NCBI RefSeq assembly: GCF_016907275.1
Contig: NZ_JAFBBP010000001.1
Location: 930,001-994,000, forward strand
Reading direction: 5' to 3'
DNA from: Micromonospora luteifusca
Lineage (GTDB): Bacteria; Actinomycetota; Actinomycetes; Mycobacteriales; Micromonosporaceae
DNA: 64,000 nucleotides
Shown here: positions 49,211 through 62,816 of the stretch, one piece after another
Position numbering within the stretch: the stretch's first letter is position 1
How the letters are laid out: each line of letters begins with the position of its first letter
The notes under the pieces: generated by a model
The model's input: only the letters and a program-made list of their open reading frames with translations
What the model was told of the DNA's origin: nothing
Databases searched by the model: none
Position numbers and translations under genes: made by a program

Positions 49211-49329
49211 GGCTGCCGATGCAATACAGCCACGTTCTGAGCAAGTCGTGGAGTTGCGCATCCCGTGTGTTCAGAGGGGATTGCACGGCACGCTGCGACT
49301 CCGCCGCCCCGGCCGGCCCTGGGCCGTGG

Positions 49330-50361
49330 GTCGCGATGAACTGCGTAGCCGCCGGCCTCATTGCCCAGGCCACCGCCAACCACGTGCCTTGCCCATCGGC
49401 ACACGACCGGGCCCGCAATCGGCACCGTAGCGGCATCGCCTGGTCCAAGAGCGCCGTCCGCGTCATCCTCACCAACCCCCGCTACACGGGACGGCAGGTG
49501 TGGAACAAGCAACGCACCGACGAGGTGCTACTCGACGTCGACGACGTGGCAATGGGCCACACCGGCGTCATGCGCTGGAACGCCCGCGACAAGTGGGTGG
49601 TTTCCAAGGACATCACCCATGAGCCACTCATCGACGACGCGACCTTCGAGCAGGCCCAAGCGATACTGCAACGACGCGGACGGGGAACCGGCGGACAACA
49701 CGTCCGGCAGCGCACCCGCGACCCGTACGTCTTCCGGGGCATGCTCTACTGCGCCGCCTGCGACCGACGCATGCAGGGCCAGTACAACCACGGCGACGCC
49801 TACTACCGCTGCCGCTTCCCGCAGGAATACGCCCTCGCCAACCAAGTTGAGCATCCCAGCAACGTGTACCTGCGCGAGGATGCCCTCACCGACCCGATCG
49901 ACACCTGGCTGGCCTCCGCCTTCGCACCCCACCACATCGAAACAACGATCACCGCGATGACCGAAGCCCAGCCCTTAGATCATTCGCCCACAGCGGGCAC
50001 AGCAGCTCAGACGATCATCACCGAGTGCGACGCCAAGTTGGAGCGCTACCGCGCCGCCCTCGACGCTGGAGCCGACCCGGCGGTGGTCACCGGCTGGATC
50101 GCGCAGACCCAGGCCGAACGCGCCCGTGCGGAGGCAGACCTCCGCGCGAACACGGGCACCGCCCCGCGCAGGATGAGCCGAGCAGAAATCACGACCCTGG
50201 TGAACGCGCTCGGCGACATCACCGCCGTGCTCCGCGGCGCCGACCCCGCCGACAAGGCCGAGGTCTACCGGCAACTCGGTCTCCGGCTGAACTACCAGCC
50301 CGAAACGCAAACGGTGCGCGCTGCGATCGACCTCAGCGCGCACCGTGGGGTTATGGTTCGT
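49330..50361 (+). pseudogene. Large serine recombinase, N-terminal catalytic domain missing
   Basis: The frame begins within the recombinase domain (IPCPSAHDxxRNRHRxGIAW pattern: HVPCPSAHDRARNRHRSGIA; WSKSAVRVILTNPRYTGRQV), continues with the zinc ribbon (MLYCAACDRRMQGQYNHGDA YYRCRF) and a coiled coil, and reaches the family's end near LRLNYQPETQTVRAAIDL. The resolvase domain with the catalytic Ser, normally ~150 residues, is absent upstream, where only the aminotransferase control region lies. The frame happens to stay open to 51243 but that part overlaps real minus-strand coding. Confidence 0.83.
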
Positions 50362-50389
50362 GTCCGAGGGGGGATTCGAACTCTTGCAC
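50362..50389 (-). other. tRNA 3'-end-like sequence (possible attachment site)
   Basis: On the minus strand GAGTTCGAATCCCCCCTCGGAC resembles a T-loop plus acceptor 3' strand. Only the 3' part fits: T-stem pairing is poor and no matching acceptor 5' strand (GTCCGAG) lies ~70 nt upstream, so it is not a tRNA gene. Placed exactly at the recombinase end, it may be a relic attachment site. Bases 50390-50817 hold no recognisable gene. Confidence 0.4.
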
Positions 50390-50817
50390 GCATCATTTGT
50401 GCACCATTGTGGGTGCGCATGCTGATAGGTTACGGCATGGCCAGGATTGGTCCAATCCCCAAAATCCACATCACTGTGCGTGAGCATGAATGGCAGCTCG
50501 GACACATTGGGCCACATGCCTTGCGCAGCGGCTCGCCCCGTCATCGACTGGCCAAGATGAATGTGCAGCTATCCCCTATGGCCGCTCAATCAGGCGTCGG
50601 CGAGCCGCCGCTAAGAATTTCTGCCTTTGGCGCGCTTCAGCCGGTCGACGTGCCGGCAGCCGTAGCGGTCGGATTCTTCGGCGCTCAGTGCACGAGGTTC
50701 ACCGCCCTCGTTCGATGTCTGCGCTGGTCAGCCGGCCGACGACGGCTGGGGCCCCCTGGCGCACGGGATCTCTTGAGGCATGTCGAGTACGTCAAGCGGC
50801 CAGCCGCAGCCTCGGTG

Positions 50818-51636
50818 TCATGTTGCGGTGGCCGCCAAGTCGTTAAGGGCTGCGTTGATCACGGGCCAACACATGCTGAGAGTATCGCGGTCTGGAGCAT
50901 GGCCGATCTTCACCTGGGCGTTGGGATGCACGAGGTTGCGGTATTCGCGGAGTTTTCCAGCGAAACCGCGGACGTCGGCTTGTATCCACTTTTCATGGTG
51001 GGCGGTCTCGATCAGCTCATGCAGGGTCCACTTGTCGAGAGGCTTTTGTGCGTTGGGCGTGCGGGCCTTGACGGCGTCGAGGAGAACGCCTTCCAGAAGG
51101 CTACCGAGCATGATGATCGCGCTGGCGTAGGCACCGTTGCGGTCGCAGATACGTGCCTCGTTGAGCCGACTTTCAAGGACGATCGCGAGGTCGGCGTCGC
51201 GGACGATGTCTGCCATGGCCACGTGGAGCATGACGTCTGGTGACTGTTGCTCTTGGTCCTCTGGCTGCTTGTAGGGCCGAATGACGGGTCGCCCCTGGCT
51301 GTGTGCGATCTCGAAGCCTTCGATGGCGAGGATGCTGTTGAATAGCTCGGTGACCTCGGCGGCGGCCAAGGGCTCGTTGCGATGAACGTACTCACGTCGG
51401 TCAGCAAGGCGGCAGACGAGCGCGTCGATGGCCCCGGGTGTGTCTCGACGTTGACGGAGCTGGTTGGTGAGCCAGCTTCGGCGCTGTTCGCCGTTGTAGG
51501 GCGCGACGTTCTCCCAGCCGGCTTGTTGGAGAAGCTTGGGCAGCTCGGCCCCACGTCGATACACGGGGTAGTCGTCGCCACCGCAGGCGATTCGGGCGAT
51601 CTCATCGAGGGTGTTGTCGTCGATACTCTCGAGCAC
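50818..51636 (-). CDS. Helicase-associated protein with AbiJ/HEPN-like layout (candidate toxin or sensor)
   Basis: 272 aa. Residues 1-~125: YPVYRRGAELPKLLQQAGWE, SWLTNQLRQRRDTPGAIDAL, LADRREYVHR, a layout reminiscent of AbiJ N-terminal domains. Residues ~130-270 are helical: AYASAIIMLGSLLEGVLLDA, then LREYRNLVHPNAQ, resembling HEPN/DUF4145-like helices with an R-x3-6-H motif (R-N-L-V-H). GTG start 9 nt after the helicase stop, so both are co-transcribed. Family membership is inferred from motif shape only. No signal peptide or membrane helix. The tail ends near the recombinase relic. Confidence 0.72.
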   Translation of the reverse strand: MLESIDDNTLDEIARIACGGDDYPVYRRGAELPKLLQQAGWENVAPYNGEQRRSWLTNQLRQRRDTPGAIDALVCRLADRREYVHRNEPLAAAEVTELFNSILAIEGFEIAHSQGRPVIRPYKQPEDQEQQSPDVMLHVAMADIVRDADLAIVLESRLNEARICDRNGAYASAIIMLGSLLEGVLLDAVKARTPNAQKPLDKWTLHELIETAHHEKWIQADVRGFAGKLREYRNLVHPNAQVKIGHAPDRDTLSMCWPVINAALNDLAATAT

Positions 51637-51645
51637 GCGGGTCTC

Positions 51646-54600
51646 CTAGAGGTCGTCTTCGTCGTCGGACAGCGTTGTGGGTCTCCAACGTGGCTGCTGG
51701 CGTGGTGCTGCGGGCAGTGAACGGGGTTCGATGCCTCGTTGCTGTAGTTGCTGCCAGAGTGGTTCGAGGGCGGCAGCGGGGTCATGCAGGTATTCGCTGT
51801 CCCGGATGCGAATGAACTGCCAACCGGCTCGGCGTAATTCTCGCTCGCGGTGTAGTTCCTGCTGGACCTGCTCGGGTTGTCGGTACCGCGACGGTGTGTC
51901 GCACTCGACGGCCAGCCGGCCGTTGTCGCCGACGACGACAAGATCGATGGCTCGGTGGTCGACGGGGTAGTGCGGGACTACGGCGTAGCCGCGCCGCCGC
52001 AGCTCCAGGAAGACGCGTTGCTGCAGCAGGCAGGCGAAGGGTTCGGTGCGGGTGTCGGGGGTGACGTCATCGAGCTCGGGATCGACCGCGAAGGTCGCCG
52101 GAGGGTGGAGCATGTAGGTCAGCAGGGAGTGGCGAAGGTCGGTGGGATTCAGGCTGTTAGGGGGCACCGAGGTGAACAGCCAGAGTTGGTCGCGGGCGCG
52201 ACTGGCGGCGACGTTGTACCGACGCTGCTCAGTGCGGCCGGTGAGAGCCGTTCTGGCCTTCGTTACGACCATGGACAGCAGGATGATGTCGCGTTCGTCG
52301 CCCTGAAAGTCGGGTGGCTGGCCAACTCGAATCTGTCGGTGGCGTATGTCGGCCGGGTCGATGCGCTCGTAGAGCAGCTTCTCAAGAATCTGAGTCTGCT
52401 TGCCGCTCTGCAGCGCGATGATGCCGATGGTCTTGTTGCGGCACATCGGGTCGTCGATGATCTTCTGAACTTGATCGATGATCGCGCTGGCTTCGACCTG
52501 ATTGCGCAGGGTTGCCCGTTGTCCCTCTTCCATGGCGTCGTTGACCTGTACGACTCTGAGGGGGTCGAGGCGGTCAGCCCCGAACTGGCGGAGCGGGATG
52601 AGCCTGCTGTCGTAGAACTGCGCAGAGGACCATCCGATGATTTCGGGCATGCATCGGAAGTGTTCGGAAAGTCGAACGACATCGGAGAAGCGGGTGGCTA
52701 GGAGTTCGTAGAGATTCGAGGTGGGAAGGAAACCGTTGCGCAGGTTCAAGGCCATGTCGGCTAGGTGCCGGTCTAGGCTCTCTTGCACGGCCTCGGAGTC
52801 GTTGTTTCGGTAGTTGGCACCGGGTGCGCACTGCTTTTCGTCGCCGACGACGATGACTCGTGGTGCCAACCACAGAAGGAAGAGGTTGTCCACGCTGGCT
52901 TGGCTGGCTTCATCGACAATGACGACGTCAAAGGCGTTGGGTTGTGGCGTGATGGTGTCGATCACGGCTGATAGGGGCATGACCCAGGCCGGGACGGCCT
53001 GCTGGGCGTTCTTCATCGCCTCGAACGCTGCGGTGAGATACCGGTCCTTGTTCTTGCCCTGCCCTCGGCCGTAGGCGCCCATGTTGGTCTTGTAGGACTG
53101 GAGAGCTTGACGCTGTTCTTCCGTTATATGTTCCAGGCAGTGTTGCAGAGCCTGTTTGCCAGCTAGCTCGGCGGTCACACGGTTGAGTTCTAGTTCAACA
53201 TCGCCGATTCGCTGCTCATGGATCTGCTCGGTATCTGCCGGCCGGATCATCTGGTGGTAGGCCGCTGCTGCGCCCCAGGCCCACGACGCTTCGAGGTCGT
53301 TGAGGCGGTGTCCCCAGGTTGGATCGTCGAGGTTCTCGCTGATCTGGGTGACGAGTGCCGGGTGGGCGGCGGAAAGTCTCTGGAGCAGCTGGTCGCAGCG
53401 CTGTTGTGAGTCCTTGTCACTCCTGGCCAGATCAAGCTGTCGGCGGGCTGCGGCGTAACGGTCGATGTCGCTGCAGCCGAGAGCGACGCTGAGATCGGCG
53501 GCTTCGGGGGCGACATCTGGGTTCCGGCACCATGTCTGCACGGTGTTGGTGAGCTCAGTCAGGGCCTCGGACGCCTGCCGTGCCCCGGCAACAGTCGTTC
53601 GGTTGTGGCCAATGCGGACGAGGAGGTCCCAGTTTTCTGGACTGCGGACTGCGAAGCGGATCCCGTGGCTGCGTAGCAGACGCTCCACTGTGTCCCGGGC
53701 TGCGGCGAGCGTACGCAAGGCCGAGGCGTTGTGTGAGATGTCGTGGAGATGTGCCACTCGACGGCGGAGCGGCCCGTGGAACGTCGGAACTCCGACCTGG
53801 GCCCATGCCTCCAGAGCTGTGGTGACAGCTGTTTCGGCCTGAAGGAAGGTGGACAGCGCGGTCAGCTCCGAGGCGGTGGCGGGCGGCGCGCCGTCAACCG
53901 TGCAGCTTTGCAGCAGGTCGGTGGCGTCGAGCTGGGCGCGTGGGGGCAGGTAGCGGCGTAGGCGTCGGCCATTGGCCAGGTGCCTACGCAGGCGCTTGGC
54001 CTGGCCCGAGAGGCGGCTGAGGTGGGCTGCGGTCAGGGGTGTGATGCCCAGATCGATGTCGCAGTCGTTGAGCGCGGTCAGGGCGCGTACGTGGGGCTCC
54101 ACCTCTCGCAGTTCGGCGAATAGGGCCTCCCAGTAGGCGGGGCTTTGCCGGGTCAGGAGCGCTTCGGCGGCTCTGCGTCGCCAGTCTGCGGCGTCCCAGT
54201 CAGTGATCGTGTCGGGTAGGCCGCAGGATGCCAGGGCGTCGGTGGCAACCGCGACGTGGCGCTGAATTTCAGCAAGGCTGGCGTCGTCGAGGGTGGTGAG
54301 TGACCAGGCGGCGGCGGTGTGGTCGGAGCCGAGGAGCCGCTCAGCGTGAGCGATGGTGGCGATCATGGCGGCGACGTCCGCGGCGTGTGGAACCTGGTCG
54401 GAGGCGGGAATGAATTGCTGGGCTCGTGCGGCGCGTTGTGGTGTGGCGGAGGTGAGAAGCTGCCACAGCTGTTGGGCCTGGTCGTTCGACAGGGGCGCAT
54501 CCCCGCAGGCGCCGGTGGGTAGGGGTTCGATCCAGCCGTGCTGATCGCGGCCGGCGTTGAGTTGTTCGACGATCTGCGCGAGAGTGCCGCCGTAGCCGTC

Positions 54601-56100
54601 GGCGATCAGCGGGTGGGTCGTGTACTCCTGTTCGCGGATCACGCCCAGATCACGGATCGTTTGCTCAAGCCGAGCGCTCAGGCTGGCGCGTTGGTACCGA
54701 AGTTGGGTGATGTCGTTACGTAGCTCGTCGACGGTGATCGTGGAGGACAGCTCCGACAGCGCCGTGATGCTGCGGTCAAGTTCGTCGGTGCCTGTCCGTT
54801 GCATGCCTGTCATGAGTACACACAGTTGCCGCACCGACTCGGGTAACTTCTCGCGGAGCACGCGCAGCGCTTGGTCCTTCTGGCTCGTGATGAGCAGCCT
54901 CTGGCCGTCGGCGAGCAGCGCGCAGATGAGGTTGGCGATGGTGTGTGTCTTGCCCGTGCCCGGTGGGCCCTGCACGACGACGGTCGTGTCGTCGCTGAGC
55001 TTGGCTAGCACCCTGCGCTGCTCTCGGTTACTGGCGAGAGGAAACAGCGGGTCGTCGCTGTTGACCGGGCGATCCCGGCCTGCGCCCGTGAGCCAATTGC
55101 AGCGCTGCGTTGCCTCGATCGGGGTCACGAGTTGCGCCAGCCCGAGGGGGGTAGGAGAGTCCGTGTCCTCAAGGCTGTCAGCGATGGTGCGGTAGACCCG
55201 CTCCAGTCCCTTGCGGTCACGGCGGCGGAGGAACAGGGCTGGGGCGAGGGTCAGCCGTGTCGTGTCGGCCTCGTCGAGGAGCGGAGGTTCCCACCAGTCG
55301 TCAGCAAGGTGGATAGCACGTTCCCAGCAACGGCGCCGCCAGAGTTGCAGTAGGCGCACCACCTCCGGCGAGAATGGGTGCAGCTGCGCTCCCGTATCGA
55401 ACCAAGGAGATTCGAAGGGTTTGGCGCGGTATCCGTCTTGAGACGTGAGAAAGTCCTGGTCCTCGATCTTCATCTGCTGGTCGAGGGACAAGGCGACCTG
55501 CAGGCTGTCGGTCGCCGGGTCCTCAACGATGGCGGCGTTCCAGACCAGCAGGTGCCGCCGAATGGCCCAACGGCCAGCGGCGCTGGAGGTGAGGAGACCG
55601 ACACCGAGCACAAGCTCCTCTGCATCGCCACGTTGTTGTGCCAGGCGCTGAAGTCGCTCCAGGTGGGTGTAGGTTGCGCGCTGCTGCCTCATGCCGCGCT
55701 CGTGCTCGGCCCACTTCGTCCACACGGCGAGCCATGCCTCGTACTCCCGCCGAAGGGAATCGGAGATTGCCGGGCCTGTGGCTGCACGCCCACTGTCGTT
55801 CGTCTCGAGCTGGAGTGGCGGGCCCTCGGCATTGCCGTACTCCGTACCGTCCAGTAGGTCACGCAGCGCTGTTGGAGGTACAGGTGGTTCAGGTGGCGGA
55901 GGGTAGGCGACCTGCATGATGACCGGTTTGCGGGAACGCGCGTTGTCTTGCGGCGGCCTACGAAACCAGTAGGTGTTGGCCTCGTCGATCGCGTCGCGAT
56001 CCGGCCGCTCGCTGCTCTTGACCTGCGCGAGCAGGTGCGCTACTAGACCTTGGGTCAGACGTCTGACGGTAGGACTTGTCGGGGACACGGGGTCCGGCAC
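51646..56100 (-). CDS. UPF1-like SF1 helicase with C-terminal REase-like (MTES_1575/Vsr-type) nuclease domain
   Basis: 1484 aa. N-terminal ~365 residues unknown. Walker A QGPPGTGKTHT with Lys384; a ~600-aa insertion with helices between motifs I and II; Walker B VVIVDEASQAS with Asp1063-Glu1064; VIVVGDEKQCAP; FQGDERDIILLSMV; RYNVAASRARDQLWLF. The C-terminal ~110 residues carry a PD-(D/E)xK-like core: Asp1386 in AIDLVV, Glu1399-Cys-Asp in LAVECD, then RRAGWQFIRIRDSEYLHDP. GTG 56100 is chosen for GAGGAGG 5 nt upstream; a TTG 14 codons earlier is less likely. Helicase-nuclease architecture and island context suggest defence. Confidence 0.88.
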   Translation of the reverse strand: MPDPVSPTSPTVRRLTQGLVAHLLAQVKSSERPDRDAIDEANTYWFRRPPQDNARSRKPVIMQVAYPPPPEPPVPPTALRDLLDGTEYGNAEGPPLQLETNDSGRAATGPAISDSLRREYEAWLAVWTKWAEHERGMRQQRATYTHLERLQRLAQQRGDAEELVLGVGLLTSSAAGRWAIRRHLLVWNAAIVEDPATDSLQVALSLDQQMKIEDQDFLTSQDGYRAKPFESPWFDTGAQLHPFSPEVVRLLQLWRRRCWERAIHLADDWWEPPLLDEADTTRLTLAPALFLRRRDRKGLERVYRTIADSLEDTDSPTPLGLAQLVTPIEATQRCNWLTGAGRDRPVNSDDPLFPLASNREQRRVLAKLSDDTTVVVQGPPGTGKTHTIANLICALLADGQRLLITSQKDQALRVLREKLPESVRQLCVLMTGMQRTGTDELDRSITALSELSSTITVDELRNDITQLRYQRASLSARLEQTIRDLGVIREQEYTTHPLIADGYGGTLAQIVEQLNAGRDQHGWIEPLPTGACGDAPLSNDQAQQLWQLLTSATPQRAARAQQFIPASDQVPHAADVAAMIATIAHAERLLGSDHTAAAWSLTTLDDASLAEIQRHVAVATDALASCGLPDTITDWDAADWRRRAAEALLTRQSPAYWEALFAELREVEPHVRALTALNDCDIDLGITPLTAAHLSRLSGQAKRLRRHLANGRRLRRYLPPRAQLDATDLLQSCTVDGAPPATASELTALSTFLQAETAVTTALEAWAQVGVPTFHGPLRRRVAHLHDISHNASALRTLAAARDTVERLLRSHGIRFAVRSPENWDLLVRIGHNRTTVAGARQASEALTELTNTVQTWCRNPDVAPEAADLSVALGCSDIDRYAAARRQLDLARSDKDSQQRCDQLLQRLSAAHPALVTQISENLDDPTWGHRLNDLEASWAWGAAAAYHQMIRPADTEQIHEQRIGDVELELNRVTAELAGKQALQHCLEHITEEQRQALQSYKTNMGAYGRGQGKNKDRYLTAAFEAMKNAQQAVPAWVMPLSAVIDTITPQPNAFDVVIVDEASQASVDNLFLLWLAPRVIVVGDEKQCAPGANYRNNDSEAVQESLDRHLADMALNLRNGFLPTSNLYELLATRFSDVVRLSEHFRCMPEIIGWSSAQFYDSRLIPLRQFGADRLDPLRVVQVNDAMEEGQRATLRNQVEASAIIDQVQKIIDDPMCRNKTIGIIALQSGKQTQILEKLLYERIDPADIRHRQIRVGQPPDFQGDERDIILLSMVVTKARTALTGRTEQRRYNVAASRARDQLWLFTSVPPNSLNPTDLRHSLLTYMLHPPATFAVDPELDDVTPDTRTEPFACLLQQRVFLELRRRGYAVVPHYPVDHRAIDLVVVGDNGRLAVECDTPSRYRQPEQVQQELHRERELRRAGWQFIRIRDSEYLHDPAAALEPLWQQLQQRGIEPRSLPAAPRQQPRWRPTTLSDDEDDL

Positions 56101-56305
56101 AGTGCCTCCTCGGGCTCGCCCAGCCCAACAGGATGCACGCAATCATTTACTGAAGGCAACCATCTGCCGGAAGGGCGACATCTAGCGACTCCACCAGTGG
56201 ACAGGGCGCAAGTCGTCGATGGCTGTGCCGCACTTTGCCCCGGGAGGCCGGCCGGGACCCGACGGGTACGGCGCCGCCCTCATGCGGACTGCGGTGGTAA
56301 CGAGG

Positions 56306-56890
56306 TCAGATTGCCCGACTTCCTTCGTGCGGTTCCGTCACGGTCCACCCCGAGGCAGTGCAGTAGAGCAGCGCGCTAGTGGCTTCGGTGCCGATGTACG
56401 CGGCGCGGGTCAACCCGTACGCGAGGAAGAACGGCGCGGTCAAAGGCCCCACCGAACCGAGCAGCGCCGAGCCGAGCCCGGAGCCCGCGCCCACGCCGGC
56501 GAACGCCGGGTCGGACGGCCGACGCGGGTGCGGCTTGCGTCGTCGCCAGACGACCACCGCGATGAGGAAAACCCCCAACAGCCACTTGAGCGGCCCCAGC
56601 GGGGCACGGACCAGTAGCAGCCCTCCAAGGACAGCCGTGGGCACGGCCCCCAGGGCGAACCAATGCACCAACCGCCAGTTCACCTCCCGCCGGTTGAACC
56701 ACGCCCGCGAACCGTTGCTCCACAGCTGGGTCACGGTCAGCATCGGCACCGCCATCCGCAGCCCGAACAGCCCGGTGAACACGGGCAGCAGCAACACGCC
56801 ACCGCCGAAGCCGGCCACCGCCGACAGCCAGGCCAGCGCGAACGCGGCCGACGACGCCACGGCGAGGGCGCCGACCAGATCCATCGCCAT
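56306..56890 (-). pseudogene. TauE/SafE-type sulfite exporter, 3' truncated
   Basis: 194 aa, with the first five or so helices: LVGALAVASSAAFALAWLSA VAGFGGGVLLLPVF, MLTVTQLWSNGSRAWFNRRE, PLGPLKWLLGVFLIAVVVWR. The family continues for another 60-80 residues after YIGTEATSALL, but here the frame turns into unrelated sequence near 56360 and stops. The breakpoint faces the helicase gene and marks an island edge. Bases 56101-56305 hold no gene. Confidence 0.78.
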
Positions 56891-61423: not shown

Positions 61424-62816
61424 GGGGCTGTCTCGCTAAGGGTGTTTCCGGCGATCTTGGTTAGTAGGTTTCAGCGGCTGGGAAACGGTCGCTGAAGGTG
61501 ATGGCGAAGGCGTTCAACGCGGGTTTCCAGCGCATCGTCCATCGGGTTCTGCCTGCTCCGGTGGGGTCCAGGGACCGGGTCACCAGGTACAGACACTTCA
61601 ACGCGGCCAGCTCGTTCGGGAAGTGGCCGCGGGCCTTGATCGCCCGCCGGTAGCGGGCGTTCAACGACTCGATCGCATTCGTCGAGCAGATCACCTTGCG
61701 GATCTCCACGTCGTAGTCGAGGAACGGGATGAACTCCGCCCACGCGTTGTCCCACAACCGGATCACCGCCGGATACCGCCCGCCCCACTTCTCCGCCAGG
61801 TCCTCGAACGCGGCCCTGGCCGCCTGGGCGTTCACCGCGGTGTAGATCGGCTTGATGTCGTGCTTCAACTCGTCCCAGTACTTCCGGGAGGTGAGCCGGA
61901 ACGTGTTGCGGATCAGATGGATGATGCAGGTCTGCACGATCGTGGCCGGCCACACGTTCGTCACGACCTCGGGCAGTCCTTCAGGCCGTCGCAGACGAGG
62001 AAGAACACGTCCTTCACACCCCGGTTACGCAGGTCGGTCAGCACGCTCATCCAGAACTTCGCGCCCTCACCACCGGTGCCGGCCCACAACCCGAGGATGT
62101 CTTTCTCCCCGTCAAGGGTGACCCCGATCGCGGCGTAGAACGGCCGGTTCGCGACCTGCCCATCGCGAACCTTAACCACGATCGCGTCGATGAACACCGC
62201 CGCGTAAATCTCGTCCAACGGGCGGTGCGACCAGTCAGTCATCTCCTCGATCACCTTGTCAGTGATCCGCGAAATGGTCTCCTTCGACACCGACGCCCCG
62301 TAGATCTCGGCGAAATGCGCCGAGATCTCCCCGGTCGTCAGGCCCTTGGCATACAGCGACAACACGACCTCGTCGACCCCGGACAACCGCCGCTGCCGCT
62401 TCTTGACGATCTGGGGCTCGAAGGTGCCGGCCCGGTCCCGGGGAACGTCAATCCGCACCGGCCCCGATGCGTCAGTCAGCACCGTCTTCGAACGGCTGCC
62501 GTTACGAATGTTGCCCGCGCCGACGCCGTCAGGTTCGTGTTTGGCATAGCCCAGGTGCTCGGTCATCTCCTCGTTCAACGCGGTTTCCAGGACGGTCTTG
62601 GTCAACTGCCGCAGCAGCCCATCCGGGCCGGTCAGCGACAGCCCCTGTTCCTTGGCCGCCCGGACCAACTCGACGGCGGCTTTCGCCTCCGCTGACGGCT
62701 CGGGCCGCTTCTTACGTCCGGTCTGATCGTTCTGTGTCGCGGTCATCACGGCACCCTCCTCACCAGGCACAACGCCCGGCAGGTCAGGCCGGAAACACCG
62801 TTAGATCCACAGTCCC
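61424..62816 (-). mobile_element. IS256-family insertion sequence, full length
   Basis: 1393-bp element. Terminal repeats: inner CTAAGGGTGTTTCCGGC (61436-61452) against CTAACGGTGTTTCCGGC on the other end, and outer GGGGCTGT/GGGACTGT. Flanked by the exact 8-bp target duplication GCCTCGGC. Encodes one frameshifted transposase. Clean duplication means no rearrangement since insertion. Confidence 0.9.
61461..62746 (-). pseudogene. IS256-type transposase with single-base frameshift
   Basis: Frame 1 (62746-61961): MTATQNDQTGRKKRPEPSAE, LNEEMTEHLGYAKHEP, first Asp in VFIDAIVVKVRDG, second Asp in FFLVCDGLK. Frame 2 (to 61461) resumes at VVTNVWPATIVQTCIIHLIR with the Glu in STNAIESLNARYRR. The expected GLKGLPEVVTNVW needs one extra G in the stretch at 61976-61982 (minus strand AAGGACTGCCC). 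All DDE residues are present across the two frames. ATG with GGAGGG upstream. Confidence 0.9.

Follow-up and report, generated by a model that had tools for sequence, protein, structure and literature searches.

What function joins a very large helicase to a small helical protein encoded directly after it? The question is raised by two adjacent genes in the 64,000-nucleotide stretch of Micromonospora luteifusca DNA analysed here (the window; contig NZ_JAFBBP010000001.1, positions 930,001 to 994,000, in a genome of 7.16 Mb, G000). The first gene encodes a superfamily 1 (SF1) helicase with a nuclease domain, and the second, 9 nt further along the minus strand, encodes a partner protein with a HEPN domain, whose closest named relatives are from Micromonospora. 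The helicase gene starts with GTG, preceded by GAGGAGG, and its stop overlaps the AGGAG site of the partner gene, which suggests that translation of the two is probably coupled. We consider it rather probable that the pair is a mobile two-gene defence module, in which a DNA-tracking helicase would control an RNA-cutting, abortive HEPN effector and thereby protect against phage.

The two genes are conserved as a unit. We scanned 84,980 species genomes with an alignment of the partner, made without the helicase, and retained 80 of the 111 loci that were confirmed. In 74 of these 80, the gene immediately upstream on that strand encodes a helicase, at a spacing of -14 to 164 nt. The earlier note had described a helicase followed by a small protein as one unit, and had held that a lack of conserved linkage in other genomes would speak against it; the unit is confirmed and the linkage holds. 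Many of the loci are close kin, and at 80% helicase identity 32 HEPN-partnered rows remain, including the window and four G loci. Truncated or frameshifted helicase genes occur among the linked loci (L012, L024, L046 and L083), and the six unlinked loci are a decayed copy (L018), one without a helicase (L077) and four that are non-actinobacterial (L082, L084, L087 and L089). Searching in reverse, with an N-terminal helicase query against 300 Micromonosporaceae genomes, we found 20 places above 200 bits. The HEPN partner is present at 14 of them (in G096 both genes are frameshifted), a Ymh-HEPN protein at two and a DpnII-type nuclease at one; G061 is truncated, and G086 and G097 have no small effector, the helicase of G086 being followed after 7 nt by a tryptophan-dioxygenase-like gene. 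The partner family itself was matched in 28 of the 300 genomes, in some only partially. Furthermore, distances between helicases track those between their partners across 27 pairs (matrix correlation r 0.915, maximum 0.302 in 1000 permutations), a value for which shared inheritance accounts as well as contact does. Viral contigs held no relative of the partner and 10 relatives of the helicase, none of them with the HEPN partner as the directly downstream gene. Open reading frames (ORFs) that overlap other helicases (L132, L150, L154, L155, L162, L163, L195, L196 and L200) were judged by eye to be probable spurious frames.

Tight spacing and co-inheritance are also what one would expect of a toxin-antitoxin-like or genome-integrity stress module, in which a HEPN toxin is kept in check by the helicase and is set off mainly by damage to the host's DNA, not by phage. 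The solved folds closest to the partner include MNT-HEPN toxins, and the defence system Hachiman reacts to DNA damage without phage (PMC12278908; this and the other papers cited by PMC number are drawn on in part). We find such a module improbable all the same, as the helicase is far above the usual size of an antitoxin, helicase relatives without the toxin exist, and the exchange of the partner for a DpnII-type nuclease, described below, better fits a set of defence effectors.

The C-terminal half of the partner has the HEPN four-helix fold, and its RNxxH motif is nearly invariant: all 45 relatives compared have R233 and H237, and 44 of them have N234. Fold and motif together confirm the HEPN-like helical domain with R-x3-H that the earlier note had seen in this protein, and we predict that the partner cuts RNA. 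Pfam DUF4145 matches it at 18.2 bits, below the cut-off of 23.1, and PF13643 is listed for a relative (P0019). Neither PADLOC nor NCBIfam matches the partner up to E 1, and the PDB contains no sequence relative of it below E 0.7. The earlier note had likened the N-terminal half to an AbiJ-type domain; no Pfam AbiJ_NTD model matches the partner up to E 1, the fold matches scarcely extend over the N-terminal domain, and the viral library has no match to this domain below E 0.039. It may be the AbiJ-NTD1 of PMC3710099, with which we compared it by description, because it is homologous to the N-terminal domain of a Ymh-HEPN protein and AbiJ-NTD1 is described as a domain that nucleases share with HEPN proteins of the AbiJ, DUF4145 and Ymh types.

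In the helicase, both the core fold and the motifs of UPF1/Dna2-like SF1 enzymes are present, a nearly all-helical insertion separates motifs I and II, and the C-terminal domain matches the Vsr-type nuclease family MTES_1575 at 82.7 bits (Pfam cut-off 38.2), so that the UPF1-type helicase, its large insertion and its nuclease-like core all stand as first read from the letters. A separate new domain in residues 1-365 was set aside, since alignments to UPF1-like cores already begin at residue 8-13. The nuclease motif of the window copy is incomplete: it reads ECDTPSRY in place of the usual ECDGxxxH, with Gly and His replaced and D1386 and E1399 kept, and the lost His is the counterpart of an active-site residue in Vsr. 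Motifs were read by text pattern, and rows without a readable motif, including five of a second helicase lineage, were left uncounted. ECDGxxxH is kept in 21 of 21 readable HEPN-partnered tree rows of clade A (the helicases related to the window's) outside the window's own subclade. Within that subclade of nine Micromonosporaceae rows, Gly and His are lost in eight, the window included; the Glu is kept in all, the Asp of IDLVV in all but L013, and L126 has the full motif. We do not regard this loss as a hallmark of the subclade, as the His is also gone in the solitary helicases L154, L157, L168 and L174, and Gly and His in L251. Judged from its motif, DNA cleavage by the window copy is doubtful, and the effector role would then likely shift to the partner.

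This bears on direct restriction, whereby foreign DNA is degraded by the helicase-nuclease itself, with the HEPN protein acting as a PrrC-like guard that kills only if a phage disables the nuclease. The intact motif in the other partnered rows fits such a scheme, as do the type I restriction-modification (R-M) genes beside some partner relatives. HEPN families are known to accompany R-M nucleases, and it was proposed that the HEPN domains are kept in check by R-M subunits and released on R-M neutralisation (PMC3710099). For the pair in the window we consider direct restriction unlikely, given the loss of Gly and His in its subclade and the result of a family scan of ten neighbouring ORFs, none of which is a methylase.

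A further line of evidence is that another protein occupies the partner position in three Micromonosporaceae genomes. In two of them (L121 in G257 and L122 in G241), the slot is filled by an N-terminal domain joined to Hypoth_Ymh (PF09509), a family counted among HEPN in PMC3710099. The two proteins are 92% alike, their genes overlap the helicase stop by 4 nt, and the Ymh partner scores E 6.7e-55 against PD-Lambda-3_B of PADLOC. The N-terminal domains of the Ymh and window partners are homologous (hhalign score 37.1, probability 81%, with 100 column shuffles at or below 18.6). Four Ymh-type relatives elsewhere (L242, L243, L245 and L246) do not adjoin a window-type helicase, hence the Ymh gene was probably recruited to it. 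In the third genome (L126 in G266), the helicase gene is split, and the protein encoded after it is a DpnII/MboI-type nuclease that matches Aga_Helical-REase models. Homology between the N-terminal parts of this nuclease and of the HEPN partner is not supported (hhalign E 0.44, from a single sequence), and this exchange is therefore positional only. We placed the exchanges on a helicase tree of 69 hand-chosen rows, one quick FastTree run that carries a long-branch warning. The partnered clade (27 HEPN, 2 Ymh and 1 DpnII) has SH-like (Shimodaira-Hasegawa-like) support of 95, and its Micromonosporaceae branch contains both exchanges. The partner labels require 5 changes, where shuffled labels need 27.3 on average and 0 of 200 shuffles came as low. 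The idea of a swappable N-terminal domain has a forerunner in fusions (PMC3710099), to which we add partner exchange at the operon level beside one helicase. As a separate observation, G061 encodes an AbiJ_NTD3 protein directly beside a Ymh-HEPN-type protein (L246:6232-8379), about 58 kb from the truncated helicase.

The partner family also accompanies a second helicase of about 1350-1400 aa, in nine of its tree rows. In the two members tested, L138 and L085, DUF4011 occurs together with MTES_1575; their matches to PDC-S37 score 898 and 892 bits, and L138 keeps the nuclease motif as ETDGxxYH. Across 300 genomes, a same-strand partner follows about 4 kb on in 10 of 10 full-length members at an identity of at least 57%, compared with 0 of 32 more distant members; one further match is a 148-aa fragment. 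Beyond the actinobacteria, partner homologues stand beside type I R-M genes at three loci, with R, M and S subunits at L084, R-like and S subunits at L082 and an M subunit at L089, and L087 is ambiguous. A single effector family is thus found with two SF1 lineages and next to type I R-M genes. The R-M-adjacent homologues (L082:8001-8858, L084:8004-8849 and L089:6373-7230) come from WOR-3, Thermosulfurimonas and Omnitrophota.

Could the pair instead be a housekeeping one that serves DNA repair or RNA processing, with no role in defence? The UPF1/Dna2-like core would suit this, and DUF4011 genes can be core genes that flank hotspots, for example cDHS1 of P. aeruginosa (PMC10250203). A crude comparison of the surroundings of the pair also gave no defence-island signal. 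From 86 flank ORFs we dropped 11 that are, overlap or abut the pair, and 75 of 77 control ORFs were used, all called crudely by GC3 (G+C content at third codon positions). The 75 flank proteins matched 10 PADLOC models, one protein each, and the 75 control proteins matched 35, up to two proteins each (22 of the 25 control matches listed are to PD-T4-6 models), so that this crude comparison gives no enrichment around the pair. The null result weighs against a defence role, as do the 31 of 69 tree rows in which relatives of the helicase have no partner and the fact that the exchange evidence comes from three genomes only. Even so, we hold a housekeeping pair to be very unlikely: its presence in Micromonosporaceae is patchy, its partner is exchanged and it moves between genomes. 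The 95% identity to Micromonospora endolithica is confined to 5.9 kb, outside which similarity ends on both sides except for one 91-bp piece at 80%, and the pair therefore moves as a small cassette.

The pair is real and conserved, and it is unnamed in the libraries searched; like the earlier note, which could not assign it to a named system, we found no exact match in Pfam, PADLOC or NCBIfam. The best library matches of the helicase are the PADLOC candidate model PDC-S37 (171 bits over model positions 298-1341 of 1550, for a model with no stated cut-off) and ProA (NCBIfam NF058533; 187.8 bits, below the equivalog cut-off of 1500). Both span the helicase and nuclease regions. Of the 30 Pfam matches of the window helicase 25 were listed, none of them DUF4011, and these libraries lack a model for the HEPN partner. 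The match to Hhe (100.6 bits, equivalog cut-off 2000) runs over the nuclease domain and the latter half of the helicase, but Hhe is described in NCBIfam by its DUF4011 domain. The Mokosh proteins MkoA and MkoC share the SF1 core at 128 and 118 bits, but the match is confined to that core, Mokosh has other fused or partner domains, and PADLOC has no match to the partner. The Hachiman helicase belongs to SF2, and the Hachiman effector is a DUF1837 nuclease, unlike the SF1-nuclease and HEPN protein of the window. The window pair does not qualify as HamA plus HamB, with the helicase matching HamB at E 0.043, the partner having no PADLOC match and no DUF1837 among its Pfam matches. The likeness to Hachiman (HamAB) is one of logic, a sensor helicase that restrains a small effector (PMC12278908).

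Among HEPN proteins, the PD-Lambda-3_B or Ymh type and the window partner have homologous N-terminal domains, and the former can fill the same operon slot, but its HEPN family differs. The AbiJ-NTD1 HEPN proteins (Anantharaman et al. 2013, PMC3710099) share an N-terminal domain that may equal that of the partner; the part of that paper drawn on here describes no pairing with a window-type helicase. It does describe SF1 helicase, Vsr nuclease and HEPN fused as single giant proteins (MTES_1575), as well as DUF4145 in operons with R-M genes. PrrC-like guards resemble the pair in coupling a HEPN effector to a DNA translocase-nuclease and in the R-M neighbours of partner homologues, and differ from the window locus, where the helicase-nuclease is of SF1 and none of the neighbours scanned is a methylase. 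A search of the open-access literature, by titles and abstract starts, found nothing on the helicase-HEPN pair, and PMC3710099 comes nearest.

The features of the locus are collected in the table. The recombinase and the short TauE/SafE gene on the two sides of the pair are likely scars of an island, and no tRNA that might serve as an attachment site lies within the window. In two other genomes the helicase gene is broken at about the same place, codon 662-666 (L012:5440-5560 and L125:9975-10095); one keeps only the 3' part, beside an ORF like the recombinase remnant of the window, and the other only the 5' part, so the helicase gene may contain a target for site-specific insertion. The genome carrying the window has a second helicase-nuclease of the same superfamily (L127:8140-13425, G000:C1 about 388139-393424), of 1761 aa and 32% identity, without a partner. 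Solitary Micromonosporaceae relatives of the helicase (L158, L161, L163, L165, L167, L175 and L176) bear a C-terminal extension of 246-261 aa that is arginase/ureohydrolase-like by eye. A supposed small effector overlapping the related helicase-nucleases L251, L252 and L257 proved to be an SF2 helicase (L251:9739-11454, L252:10762-12456 and L257:9703-11919; two genomes, family f8), with a C-terminal Sigma70_r4 in two of the three copies, and represents another two-gene arrangement.

Table. Features of the helicase-HEPN locus, in window positions.
Feature	Position	Strand	Remarks
SF1 (UPF1/Dna2-like) helicase	51646..56100	-	1484 aa; C-terminal MTES_1575 Vsr-type nuclease domain
Stalk/1B region of UPF1-like core, probable	55006..56100	-	residues 1-365; long helix 114-156, strands 161-204
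Walker A GPPGTGKT	54946..54969	-	residues 378-385
Insertion between motifs I/Ia and II	52996..54813	-	about residues 430-1035; nearly all-helical
Motif II DEASQ	52900..52914	-	residues 1063-1067
MTES_1575 nuclease domain	51745..52023	-	residues 1360-1452; IDLVV (D1386) ... VECD (E1399)
Partner protein	50818..51636	-	272 aa; mostly helical N-terminal domain (about 1-130), C-terminal HEPN (about 146-272; R233, H237)
Transferred cassette	50360..56284	not assigned	5.9 kb; 95% identity to Micromonospora endolithica
Recombinase, one side of pair	49219-51243		no N-terminal catalytic domain detected
Short TauE/SafE gene, other side of pair	56306-56890
Mutator-family transposase (Transposase_mut) ORF	61961-62770		269 aa, model of 379 positions

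How might such a module work? We propose that the SF1B-type helicase-nuclease tracks along or unwinds DNA, where it would sense an abnormal state such as a phage end, a gap or a replication intermediate. Until then, it would keep the HEPN partner inactive through contact with the partner's N-terminal domain. On sensing, it would release or activate the partner, and a HEPN dimer may then cut tRNA or mRNA, so that the cell is sacrificed and the phage cannot multiply. This defence reading draws on the linkage in 74 of 80 loci and the distance correlation, on the HEPN fold with its invariant Arg and His, and on the second helicase lineage and the R-M neighbours. The PADLOC matches of the exchanged partners and the cassette-like transfer point the same way. 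It also has precedents in Hachiman (PMC12278908), in the proposed check of HEPN proteins by R-M subunits (PMC3710099) and in the BREX-associated protein BxaP, which has a DUF4145-like domain and was tested against T4 (PMC10799925).

More tentatively, and with less confidence than we would need to adopt the idea, the small protein may be a plug-in that joins an adaptor-like N-terminal domain to an exchangeable killer domain (DUF4145-HEPN, Ymh-HEPN, perhaps DpnII/MboI) and docks on unrelated translocase-nucleases, whether UPF1-type helicases, DUF4011-type helicases or type I motors. Motor and warhead would then be separately replaceable, and in the window's subclade the nuclease of the translocase would have decayed, leaving the plug-in as the sole effector.

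If the defence reading is true, the pair would be a widespread actinobacterial two-gene system with a replaceable effector, whose small partner has no model in the libraries searched. It would also suggest that PDC-S37-like calls in actinobacteria can omit a subunit. The system would join helicase-sensor defence, with the logic of Hachiman, to HEPN abortive effectors, and its natural partner exchanges could be used to test how a DNA motor controls an RNase.

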